Shown one piece after another: positions 56,678 to 60,285 of a DNA stretch of 64,000 nucleotides. The stretch is from contig NZ_CP151634.1 in assembly GCF_038397725.1 (NCBI RefSeq), forward strand, positions 1,612,001-1,676,000, read 5' to 3'. Both the position numbers and the translations under genes were made by a program. The first letter of the stretch is position 1. Every line of letters begins with the position of its first letter. The notes beneath the pieces are model-generated. The model had not been told where the DNA came from. It did no database searches and worked only from the letters and a program-made list of their open reading frames with translations. Source of the stretch: Microbacterium sp. LWO13-1.2. Lineage in GTDB: Bacteria > Actinomycetota > Actinomycetes > Actinomycetales > Microbacteriaceae.

Positions 56678-58405
56678 ATGGATGCCGGGATCTTCTTCGT
56701 TCTCACAGGCGCACTCATCGTCGCCGCCATCGCGCGCTGGCGCGGGTGGCCGGCGCCGCTGCTGGTCACGGTCGTCGCGCTCGCCGTGTCGTTCGTGCCG
56801 TTCGTGCCGAACCTCGAGATCGACGGTCATCTGCTGCTGACCCTCGTGCTGCCGCCGCTGCTGTACTCGGCCGCTCTCGACGTCTCCTTCATCAGCTTCG
56901 CGCGCAGTCTGCCCCAGATCCGTCGTCTGGGCATCGGGCTGGTGCTGGTGACGACGCTGGTGGTCGGGCTCATCGCCTGGTGGATCCTCCCCTCGCTGAC
57001 CCTGCCCGGCGCGCTGCTCCTCGGAGCGATCGTCGCGCCGCCCGATGCCGTCTCCGCCGCCGCGATCGGCCGCAAGCTCGGGCTGCCCCGACGCGTGATG
57101 ACCGTGTTGTCGGGAGAGAGCCTCATCAACGACGCGACCTCGCTGACGCTGTACCGGGTGTTCGCGTCGATCGTGCTCGGCGCCACGGTCAGCGTCTGGG
57201 GAGGCATCGGCCAATTCGCGCTCGCCGTCGTGTTCGGCGTGGGTATCGGCCTGGTCTTCGGCATCGTCATCCACCAGCTGCGCCTGCGGATCGCGGATCC
57301 CGTCGTCATCGGCACCTTCGGCCTGCTCGTGCCGTTCGGCGCCTATGCGATCGCCGAGCACGTCGGGGGATCAGGTGTGCTCGCAGTCGTCGCGATGGGC
57401 CTGTTCGTCGGCTTCAACTCGCCGAGCACCAGCTACACGACGAGGCAGCAAGAGGCGCCGCTGTGGCTCTCCGCCGACTTCCTGCTGGAGAGCTTCGTAT
57501 TCGCCTACATCGGCTTGCAGTTCCCTCGAGTGATCAGCGACCTCGGTGACGAATCCGTCGTTCATGTGATGCTGCTGTCCGGGGCCGTGCTGCTCGCCGT
57601 CCTGCTGGTGCGCCCCGCGTTCGTGTATCCCGCGAATGCGTGGGGTCGCTTCCAACAGCAGGTGCGGCTGCGTCGCTTCGACCGACGGGTGCAGTCGGGG
57701 CGAGTCCAGGCGCGGTTGGCGCGCGGGAAGCATCCGCGAAAGCCGCAGATGTCCGTGGAGCAGCTGCGCGGGCGGATGATCGCGCCCGCCCTGACCTGGA
57801 AGGACAACGCCGTCATCTCGTGGGCCGGGATGCGCGGGGTCGTCACTCTCGCGACGGCTCTCGCCGCCGCGGATCTGGCTGACCTGGACAGAGGCGCAGG
57901 TCATGCGATCGTCGTCGTCGCGTATGTCGTCACCCTCGGCACTCTGCTGTTGCAGGGCTTGACGCTGCCGTGGCTCATCCGTGTTCTCGGGGTGGTGGCC
58001 GATTCGGAGCACGAGGAGGACCGACGCCAGCTCGCCGCAGTCCGTGCGCGCAGCAAGGAGGCGGGTAAGGAGTATCTCGAACAGCGCCGTTCCGAGTGGA
58101 TCGCGGAGCACGGCAAAGGCAGCACGGCAAAGTTCGACGCCTTCGAGACGCGCCTGCTGAAGATGGAGACGGATGCTGATCGCGCACAGGCGAGCACAGA
58201 CGGTTCGGGTCCTGCGCATCCGACCTACGCCGAGCTCGAGGAGCTGTCGCGAGGGTGGCTGCAGGTGCGGCGCGAGGTGCTGCGGCAGGAGCGCGACGCC
58301 GGGAAGCTGAACGAGGAGGTGATGCGCGAGCTGATCGCGGCGATGGATGCCGAGGAGCTCGCGCTCGACACTCGGGGTGCGCTGCGGTTGCCCGGGCGGG
58401 CGTAG
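56678..58405 (+). CDS. Na+/H+ antiporter (CPA1/NhaP type)
   Basis: A 575-residue antiporter with about 12 hydrophobic helices over residues 1-430. The ion-site region LLGAIVAPPDAVSAAAIGRKLG and GESLINDATSLTLY are characteristic. The hydrophilic C-terminal tail of ~140 residues is charged and likely regulatory. Functions in pH and Na+ homeostasis. Confidence 0.93.
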   Translation: MDAGIFFVLTGALIVAAIARWRGWPAPLLVTVVALAVSFVPFVPNLEIDGHLLLTLVLPPLLYSAALDVSFISFARSLPQIRRLGIGLVLVTTLVVGLIAWWILPSLTLPGALLLGAIVAPPDAVSAAAIGRKLGLPRRVMTVLSGESLINDATSLTLYRVFASIVLGATVSVWGGIGQFALAVVFGVGIGLVFGIVIHQLRLRIADPVVIGTFGLLVPFGAYAIAEHVGGSGVLAVVAMGLFVGFNSPSTSYTTRQQEAPLWLSADFLLESFVFAYIGLQFPRVISDLGDESVVHVMLLSGAVLLAVLLVRPAFVYPANAWGRFQQQVRLRRFDRRVQSGRVQARLARGKHPRKPQMSVEQLRGRMIAPALTWKDNAVISWAGMRGVVTLATALAAADLADLDRGAGHAIVVVAYVVTLGTLLLQGLTLPWLIRVLGVVADSEHEEDRRQLAAVRARSKEAGKEYLEQRRSEWIAEHGKGSTAKFDAFETRLLKMETDADRAQASTDGSGPAHPTYAELEELSRGWLQVRREVLRQERDAGKLNEEVMRELIAAMDAEELALDTRGALRLPGRA

Positions 58406-58721
58406 GGGCGCATCCGCCTCCATAACTCCGGAGATTCGCGGGGCCGGACGTACGGTGCCCGCGTGATCTCGGGAGATCGGATGCCGGCCGGAGTTGAATC
58501 TCCGGAGTTGTGGAGCCGGTATCGGCGGAACCTCCGTTCATAACTCAGGAGATATGCGGCGCCCGGTTGGCGGCGCCCGCGTGATTCCAGGGAGTCGGAT
58601 GCCGGCGGGCCGCGTTCTTCCTGAATTGTGAACGGCAGGCCGTCGGAGCCTCCGTCACCCGGATGCCGAAAGCGCCCCGTCCCGCAGGGGACGAGGCGCT
58701 CTCGAGGGGTGACGCGGCGGG
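58406..58721. repeat. gene-free region with two tandem structured repeats (period 118 bp)
   Basis: Copy 1 (58421-58515) and copy 2 (58539-58633) align without gaps at an offset of exactly 118 bp. Each begins CATAACTC and ends TTGTG. In copy 1 the ends pair perfectly: AACTCCGGAGATTC (58424) with GAATCTCCGGAGTT (58496). An inner stem GATCTC/GAGATC lies at 58465-58478. Copy 2 differs, yet 58547/58622, 58586/58593 and 58587/58592 change together to keep pairing. This suggests a structured RNA or palindromic repeat family. No ORF of interest is present; the symporter terminator lies at 58671-58700. Confidence 0.72.
58671..58700. terminator. hairpin downstream of the dicarboxylate symporter
   Basis: AGCGCCCCGTCCC and its partner GGGACGAGGCGCT form a 13-bp stem with one mismatch and a 4-nt loop, 22 bp after the minus-strand stop. 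Confidence 0.72.
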
Positions 58722-60164
58722 TCAGCGGGCCCCGACCGGCTCCGGATCCTTGTCACTGACGGCATCCGTCTCCGGCACGCCGTCGGAGTCGTCCGAGTCG
58801 CCGGAGTCGTCCGCGAACGGAAGGCCCTCGCGCGGAGCGTTGTAGAGTTCCTCGTCGAGGATGCCCTCGCGCTTGGCGACGATGGTCGGGACGAGCGCCT
58901 GGCCGGCGACGTTGACCGCGGTGCGGCCCATGTCGAGGATCGGGTCGATCGCGAGCAGCAGACCGACGCCCTCGAGCGGCAGGCCGAGTGTCGACAGCGT
59001 GAGCGTCAGCATCACGGTCGCGCCGGTGGTGCCGGCTGTTGCCGCCGAGCCGACGACCGAGACGAGGACGATCAGCAGGTACTGCACGATGTTCAGCTCG
59101 ATGCCGAAGAACTGCGCGACGAAGATCGCGGCGATGGCCGGGTAGATCGCGGCGCATCCGTCCATCTTCGTCGTCGCGCCGAACGGCACGGCGAACGATG
59201 CGTAAGAGCGGGGCACGCCGAGGTTGCGTTCGGTGACGCGCTCGGTGAGGGGCAGCGTGCCGATCGAGGAGCGGCTGACGAACGCCAGCTGCACGGCGGG
59301 CCAGACACCCGAGAAGTACTGCTTGATCGAGAGGCCGTGCGCCTTCACGATGGCCGGGTAGACCACGAAGAGCACCAGCGCGAGGCCGATGTAGATCGCG
59401 GCGGCGAACCAGGCGAGCGAGGTGAGCTTGTCCCAGCCGTACTCGACAACGGCCGCGCCGATGAGGCCGAAGGTGCCGAGCGGGGCGATGCGGATGATCC
59501 ACCACAGCACGCGCTGGATGACCTTCAGCAGCGACTCGGTGAAGACGAGGAACGGCTCGGCCTTCTTGCCGGCCTTGAGTGCGGCGATGCCGACCACGGT
59601 CGCGACGACGATGACCTGCAGGATGTTGAAGCCGACGCTGGACGTGACGGCGCCCGCCTCGGGGTTGAAGGAGCTGTTCACGCTGAGGCCGAGGAAGTTC
59701 TGCGGGATGAGCCCGAGCAGGAAGTTCCACCAGGTGCCGACCGTGTACGGGTCGCCGGGCTCGAGGCCTGCACCCGCACGGGATCCGGGCTGGATGACCA
59801 GACCGAGCACGATGCCGATGGTGACGGCGATGAACGCGGTGATCGCGAACCACAGCAGCGTCTGCCCGGCGAGGCGGGCGGCGTTCTGCACCCGACGCAG
59901 GTTCGAGATGCTGGCGACGATGGCGGTGAAGATCAGCGGGACCACGGCGGCGCGGAGCAGCGTGACGTAGGAGCCGCCGATCGTGTCGAGCGTGGCGGAG
60001 AGTCCGTTCGGAGCCTCAGCGGTGGCGCCGAGCTGGCGGGCCAGCAGGCCGGCGGCGATGCCGAGAACGAGGGCGGCCAGGATCTGGAAGCCGAACGAGG
60101 TCAGCAGCTTCCGGACGGGTCCGCGGGTATCTGGCGCTTTCTGGGCGCGGGCGGTGGTGCTCAT
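58722..60164 (-). CDS. dicarboxylate/amino acid:cation symporter (DAACS/GltP type)
   Basis: A 480-residue membrane carrier with the family's serine-rich SRSSIGTLPLT hairpin, the FAVPFGATTKMDGCA motif and VNVAGQALVPTIVAK near the C-terminus. ATG 60164 gives the N-terminus MSTTARAQK; the longer frame has no support. An acidic Ser/Asp tail (DDSGDSDDSDG) follows the last helix. Substrate may be glutamate, aspartate, succinate or serine. Confidence 0.92.
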   Translation of the reverse strand: MSTTARAQKAPDTRGPVRKLLTSFGFQILAALVLGIAAGLLARQLGATAEAPNGLSATLDTIGGSYVTLLRAAVVPLIFTAIVASISNLRRVQNAARLAGQTLLWFAITAFIAVTIGIVLGLVIQPGSRAGAGLEPGDPYTVGTWWNFLLGLIPQNFLGLSVNSSFNPEAGAVTSSVGFNILQVIVVATVVGIAALKAGKKAEPFLVFTESLLKVIQRVLWWIIRIAPLGTFGLIGAAVVEYGWDKLTSLAWFAAAIYIGLALVLFVVYPAIVKAHGLSIKQYFSGVWPAVQLAFVSRSSIGTLPLTERVTERNLGVPRSYASFAVPFGATTKMDGCAAIYPAIAAIFVAQFFGIELNIVQYLLIVLVSVVGSAATAGTTGATVMLTLTLSTLGLPLEGVGLLLAIDPILDMGRTAVNVAGQALVPTIVAKREGILDEELYNAPREGLPFADDSGDSDDSDGVPETDAVSDKDPEPVGAR

Positions 60165-60246
60165 GAGACTCCAAGTCGTTGCGCGCCGGTTGCGCGCCAT
60201 GGGAGACAACGCTAGGAGCACCCATTCATTCCGAGGGTCGAAATGA

Positions 60247-60285
60247 CGAAGGATGACGGATGCTGTGCGCATCCGTCATCCTTCG
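60247..60285. terminator. intrinsic terminator of the small lipoprotein gene
   Basis: CGAAGGATGACGGATGC (60247-60263) and GCATCCGTCATCCTTCG (60269-60285) pair perfectly around a 5-nt loop, just after the minus-strand stop at 60303. Confidence 0.8.

Follow-up and report, generated by a model that had tools for sequence, protein, structure and literature searches.

Two similar repeats stand between a pair of converging transporter-like genes in the window, the 64,000-nucleotide stretch of Microbacterium sp. LWO13-1.2 DNA that was analysed, and they raise the question of whether what is preserved in them is a folded RNA or a property of the DNA itself. The preliminary description left both readings in play, proposing either a structured RNA or a palindromic repeat family. 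The features of the locus are as follows.

56678–58405, plus strand: left flanking gene, putative, antiporter-like (open reading frame; synteny with relatives).
58418–58515, no strand: copy 1 of the palindromic element, on the 98-bp rung of the length ladder (family model, repeat, letters).
58418–58436, plus strand: copy 1 left half-site, CTCCATAACTCCGGAGATT, type CGGA (letters).
58497–58515, minus strand: copy 1 right half-site, CTCCACAACTCCGGAGATT, type CGGA (letters).
58516–58535, no strand: 20-bp spacer separating copies 1 and 2 (alignment of the copies).
58536–58633, no strand: copy 2 of the palindromic element, 98-bp rung (family model, strict paired pattern).
58536–58554, plus strand: copy 2 left half-site, GTTCATAACTCAGGAGATA, type AGGA (letters).
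58615–58633, minus strand: copy 2 right half-site, GTTCACAATTCAGGAAGAA, type AGGA (letters).
58671–58700, no strand: terminator-like hairpin, AGCGCCCCGTCCC...GGGGACGAGGCGCT, outside the element (by-eye reading).
58722–60272, minus strand: right flanking gene, putative, dicarboxylate symporter-like (open reading frame; synteny with relatives).

The two copies are offset by 118 bp and are 75% identical across 71 nt, with an interior identity of 0.64, so that the repeat noticed earlier is real. All 12 letters of the three base pairs cited as covarying were correct in both copies, but two of these pairs (58468–58475 and 58469–58474) fall in the interior, outside the set of mirror pairs that make up the palindrome. 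A family model of 37 relatives of the 86-bp class recognised copy 2 (E 8.1e-10 on the minus strand, 1.9e-9 on the plus strand) and copy 1 (E 7.7e-9 plus, 2.4e-7 minus) in a search of the window, where the best other match had E 0.88. With G-U counted, 19/19 mirrored arm pairs are formed in copy 1 and 16/19 in copy 2; pairs 1, 3, 12 and 19 differ on both sides between the copies, and pairs 9, 17 and 18 are lost in copy 2. The pair may have arisen by tandem duplication of a single 118-bp unit that later diverged.

Each element consists of inverted half-sites, GTTCAYAACTC-MKSA, flanking a non-conserved interior. In 95 elements of 86 bp the half-site reads GTTCAYAACTC, then M (A/C), K (G/T), S (C/G) and A, followed by a purine-rich stretch, and position frequencies in the same set give no consensus for the interior. 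The 11-bp arm core is nearly invariant in sequence, contrary to the earlier proposal that selection acts on structure and not on sequence. A palindromic repeat family, on the other hand, was confirmed: in the LWO13-1.2 genome (4.0 Mb, one contig) the 16-mer TTCATAACTCAGGAGA has 42 matches with up to three mismatches and none when reversed, 36 of the 42 being grouped in 22 elements and six unpaired. Single half-sites were searched in this genome and in a set of 14 genomes that includes G121 (G and L numbers are our handles for genomes and loci). Among exact cores in fetched loci, 765/770 have an inverted partner at 55–115 bp, a count in which overlapping loci recur and most loci were fetched by paired patterns.

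The homologs that had been predicted are numerous in the genus. The exact paired pattern is present in 69/366 genus genomes and never in reversed controls, a stricter paired pattern in 13/149, and the 37-sequence model, with at most 12 candidates scored per genome, finds matches at E ≤ 0.001 in 276/366, although these E-values are rough and weak matches may be other hairpins. Among the matches listed, named genomes are mostly Microbacterium with some Plantibacter, and metagenome-assembled genomes are assigned to Glaciihabitans, Salinibacterium, other Microbacteriaceae and an Actinomycetales bacterium; single matches in Bifidobacterium, Similichlamydia and Kosmotogaceae, also among those listed, look like chance. 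In an order-wide search, 4/297 genomes match, all four from the genus of the window. Carriage by phages was rejected, as the exact pattern has no match in viral contigs. We found no description of the family in the titles and abstract openings of the top-ranked literature matches, in a search that covered few subscription papers.

Were the family a structured RNA, whether a small RNA or an mRNA element, its stems should be under selection, and the hairpins are indeed strong: against dinucleotide shuffles, copies 1 and 2 fold with z-scores of −7.5 and −5.6 on the plus strand and −6.3 and −3.5 on the minus strand. Shuffling only the interiors of 22 copies, some of them folded on the opposite strand, also weakened the folds slightly on average, with a mean z of about −1.1 on the plus strand, and more so for the window copies (−2.8 for copy 1 and −2.1 for copy 2). 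When 37 elements of 86 bp were aligned, the mirrored structure as a whole exceeded shuffles in covariation score (0.201 versus 0.160; 0/500) and in paired cells (62.8 versus 60.6%; 4/500), yet a per-pair table localises this covariation to the arms, and the consensus fold comprises 14 pairs. The same confinement is seen in a set of 222 elements (ladder lengths only, at most two core mismatches, at least 250 bp of flank, thinned from 287 for similar interiors), in which arm pairs 12–15 covary and pairing stands above shuffles to about position 19 and stays within z 2 of them at positions 20–44; positions 45–46, present in the longer classes only, reach z 2.3 and 3.9. On the transcribed strand, the 19-bp arms of 125 elements contain 72 G-U and 100 C-A mismatches (24 and 38, respectively, when only the first 15 bp are counted), and this excess of C-A means that pairing in a transcript is not what is favoured. 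No Rfam family matched the window at gathering scores.

The matching of one arm to the other has, for the most part, another source. Shuffling half-sites within genomes (123 elements, 17 genomes) accounts for most of it, since some genomes use a uniform half-site type, such as AGGA in G121 (all 17 used), CGGA in G219 (7/7) and AGCA in G001 (4/4), while others, for example G075, G176 and G208, are mixed. The window site itself illustrates this: the element at the orthologous site in G014 carries another type, CTCA, in both arms, which indicates that most of the apparent covariation reflects genome-specific half-site types. A smaller residue remains within elements, the arms agreeing at positions 12–14 in 0.93, 0.91 and 0.95 of cases versus 0.83, 0.83 and 0.89 in shuffles, and this excess over within-genome shuffling implies some real coupling of the two arms. 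Taken together, interior pairing that is slight or no better than chance, the G-U counts, the within-genome shuffles and the restriction of covariation to the arms led us to reject a structured RNA, which we regard as very improbable; covariation as a sign of structural selection accordingly falls away for the most part.

The lengths of the elements point instead to the double helix. In a set of 217 thinned elements of 50–170 bp with at most one core mismatch, collected without any restriction to rungs, four length classes hold 215: 74–76 bp (n = 21), 84–88 bp (n = 155), 96–98 bp (n = 35) and 107–109 bp (n = 4), the two others being 100 and 104 bp long. Lengths are best fitted by a single period of 11.2 bp, with a slope across rungs of 10.8; as the fetch patterns mostly spanned about 72–110 bp, the ladder is near-unbiased only in the gaps inside that range. 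At a looser cut-off of up to three core mismatches, 308/404 candidate pairs fall on rungs, and those off the rungs include pairings across the arms of neighbouring elements. Measured between the AA steps of the cores, the spacing is about 6, 7, 8 or 9 helical turns, for total lengths of about 75, 86, 98 and 108 bp.

The interiors, which have no common sequence, are phased with the same helix. In the 222-element set, interior A+T content has a power at 10 bp of 2.81 ± 0.13, compared with 0.94 and 1.16 in the flanks. By class, phasing is strong at 86 bp (z 13.7, n = 33), present at 108 bp (z 3.2, n = 5) and weak at 98 bp, the class of both window copies (power z 1.7, coherent z 5.0, n = 9); in copies 1 and 2 taken alone, the 10-bp A+T phasing is not visible. 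Peaks in the 86-bp class lie at about 8, 18, 28.5 and 38.5 and at the mirror positions, a peak is also central in the 75- and 98-bp classes, and the 108-bp class has about 10 peaks (n = 5). Both bases are used at the peaks (at position 38, for example, 39% A and 28% T), so the phasing is not simply the remnant of one ancestral sequence. Ladder and phasing together place the half-sites on the same helical face at a distance of 6 to 9 turns, a geometry that would be expected of DNA and not of a hairpin RNA.

On this basis, the explanation that we consider probable, with real room for doubt, is that the family goes back to an old mobile element, palindromic in sequence, and persists as a DNA micro-loop bridged by protein. 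Ends lying near-whole helical turns apart argue for a protein that grips and bends DNA rather than for a folded RNA, and inverted same-face half-sites 6–9 turns apart, with phased flexible steps between them, argue for a bridge over a very short loop or wrap. A putative protein, acting as a dimer or as two dimers aided by a DNA-bending protein, would keep the two half-sites on the same helical face, and the intervening DNA would then be bent into one tight loop or wrap. The family may have spread as a short mobile element, in the manner of miniature inverted-repeat transposable elements (MITEs) or Rickettsia palindromic elements (RPEs), and its ends may still need the bridge. Conservation of cores and lengths at orthologous sites suggests that the structure is still used.

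Lac repressor loops offer a parallel in mechanism only. These loops join same-face sites over integral turns, with a period in vivo near 11 bp (PMC5081198, PMC1762422), they span 6–8 turns, similar in size to the elements here (PMC5081198), and the fitted in-vivo helical repeats are 11.08 and 11.60 bp (PMC1762422). We counted the closeness of these repeats to the ladder in favour of a bridged loop, and two sites at an integral number of helical turns, as in such a loop, are what the elements contain. Unlike lac loops, the elements occur as copies at many loci, have phased interiors and lie between divergent genes in only 24/222 cases.

The genomic surroundings, as called by a simple codon-model gene finder, bear on another possibility, that the element is a bidirectional transcription terminator between convergent genes. 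Tandem genes flank 90 of the 222 elements, convergent genes 69 and divergent genes 24; another 35 are inside predicted open reading frames and 4 at edges. The convergent cases would suit a terminator, as would the tandem ones, in which the element begins a median of 38 bp past the upstream stop, but the divergent and ORF-internal cases would not. Nor is there an outward T-tract beyond the element ends, T making up 1% at +1 and 5–11% at +2 to +8 (n = 222), and at the window site a separate terminator-like hairpin is available at 58671–58700, which element-free relatives also possess. The missing T-tract and the genomic context led us to reject this reading, which is very improbable.

We compared the window site in nine relatives with the antiporter–symporter neighbourhood, leaving out the partial matches in G030, G032 and G033. 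Six of them (G001, G002, G021, G022, G023 and G029) have an intergenic region of 69–99 bp without an element, against 322 bp in the window genome, and these six retain, with changes, the hairpin of 58671–58700 between the same convergent genes; this hairpin is independent of the repeat. In G005 and G034 the site is taken up by other sequence, 142 bp and about 151 bp long, respectively. The element in G014 is 98 bp long, on the same rung as the window copies, and its interior identity to either of them is 0.42, so that here length was kept while half-site type and interior changed.

The same pattern holds across the family. At 204 pairs of orthologous sites the core is 96% identical, while mean identity is 0.60 in the interior and 0.80 in the flanks; random interiors give 0.42 with gaps and, as the better figure, 0.35 without. 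The two elements are of equal length in 139/204 pairs, 1 bp apart in 13 and 12 bp apart in 20. Interiors average 0.88 identity when flank identity reaches 0.9 or more, and 0.50 when it is 0.7–0.8. These 204 pairs, and a set of 188 with mean flank identity above 0.7, are non-independent (several loci appear twice, and one RsmC-like site recurs across many species); neither count includes rows whose elements were identical. The possibility that the interior becomes inverted as DNA was rejected, as only 2/188 pairs fit better inverted, both weakly. At L054, L165 and L190, ortholog flanks are 98–100% identical and interiors 79–83%, the interior changing much faster.

At one site, G176 and G177 differ from G240 in half-site type and have interiors only 0.29–0.31 identical, although the flanks are 92–95% identical over 60 bp; interiors at about the random level between such similar flanks imply that the element was replaced in place. 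Among 48 pairs of equal length whose flanks average at least 0.85 identity, it is seen in 2, both from one locus. In a search of 12 genomes, full-length matches above 76% to the elements of G176 and G240 were confined to their own site and its G177 ortholog. At a second site, G197 and G198 have the right flank and right half-site in common and differ in interior and left flank, and a 95% copy of the G198 element lies 420 bp away; at a third (L406, G197:C1:1997100-1997800), G197 carries another palindrome, GGTGCGAAGTG...CATTTCGCACC, in the position of the G198 element. The two elements of L404 (G198:C1:1269400-1270300), separated by about 420 bp, have interiors 94–95% similar and differing flanks, and this 95% copy so close by means that a local duplicate could be the source of the G198 interior. 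The L404 pair is a second local doubling, like the pair in the window.

Similar interiors at separate places of one genome are otherwise scarce: 319/327 similar-interior pairs also share flanks, and 8, several of them sub-matches of a single case, are clearly at different places, including pairs in G143 (95% over 43 bp) and G198 (94% over 49 bp). No target-site duplication was found for lengths of 1–12 bp (n = 222), 2 and 3 bp being at background and 4 bp giving 7 cases against 2.7 ± 1.6 expected; the copies may be too old to retain one. The fetched loci contain neither inverted lone cores 300–9000 bp apart nor a longer element sharing these ends, and neither a binding protein nor a transposase was found for the element.

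Some of the ORF-internal elements are in-frame insertions. In a gene that we take from its motifs to encode an RsmC-like methyltransferase, the linker of 30 fetched orthologs, judged by eye, contains a clear element of various types in 20, a degraded one in 2 and another repeat in 5, and is short in 3 (G022, G111 and G122). An 85-bp element occupies the same place of a presumed ABC-type ATPase gene, likewise named from motifs, in the window genome (G000) and in G075. By eye, the encoded peptides are not conserved and differ by gene and frame, although in the RsmC-like linker the reading SQLRKN or SQLLKN recurs from the half-site. In other species, at L113, L122, L126, L129 and L130, the linker contains two other repeat families, around CCTTCGACAAGCTCAGGGACC and CTTCGACTCGCTCCGCTCGCTCA. 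Their insertion marks this linker as a hotspot for tolerated insertions.

In-frame insertion, patchy presence, element-free sites and rare copies at new places together argue for a mobile origin, and known short elements resemble the family in part. RPEs, which are about 150 bp long and encode a conserved peptide (PMC10969869), are likewise short, dispersed, palindromic and tolerated in frame in protein genes; here, in contrast, interior and peptide are unconserved and length moves in helical-turn steps. MITEs, defined by terminal inverted repeats, no coding gene and a length under about 500 bp (PMC10969869), include Correia, QMITE and similar elements, and are similarly gene-less, mostly intergenic and patchy; the present family differs in its lack of target duplication, in interiors rarely common to loci and in quantised length, and no parental insertion sequence was found in the fetched loci. 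REP/BIME palindromes with their RAYT (TnpA-REP) proteins are dispersed, mostly intergenic and gene-less, as here. The half-sites here, compared with REP sequences, are simple inverted pairs. We excluded a REP/RAYT system since Y1_Tnp (PF01797) occurs in 1/361 genus genomes and is absent from the window genome.

Retention of the cores and, mostly, of lengths across species while interiors diverge could also mean that these are host-owned architectural or regulatory sites of a chromosomal looping or wrapping protein, with no part for mobility. In line with this, almost no lone exact half-sites occur in the fetched loci, and half-site type is uniform in some genomes, as if following a trans-acting factor, though mixed in others. 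Such sites would hardly be so patchy (69/366 genomes by the exact pattern), missing at the corresponding sites of relatives, placed inside predicted genes in 35/222 cases and between divergent genes in only 24/222, and we therefore judge this alternative unlikely, though well short of negligible. Beyond the mobile, protein-bridged micro-loop that we prefer, a more far-reaching version is conceivable, which we advance tentatively and do not expect to prove correct: selection would act on DNA mechanics, not letters, with fixed half-sites, a mutable phased interior, a ladder of 7, 8, 9 or 10 turns and interiors replaceable as a whole, and a putative Microbacteriaceae protein would wrap the element as one superhelical turn and co-evolve with the half-site type. 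Knowing the protein would place the family among selfish elements, among systems that shape the chromosome, or in both groups. With hundreds of natural copies conserved only in their end motifs and helical length, the family amounts to an evolutionary experiment on short DNA loops in vivo, and it is a caution that matched changes in the arms of a palindrome can reflect two copies of one protein site and not RNA pairing.

Individual loci add variations in arrangement. At L119 (G126), the left half-site is tandemly duplicated within the RsmC-like gene, giving a 104-bp off-rung element. In G121, 11 of the 14 listed exact-half-site pairs are 75 or 76 bp long, and at L066 of the same genome (G121:C1:3662581-3663012) three elements of 88, 98 and 75 bp follow one another, the first two with similar interiors.
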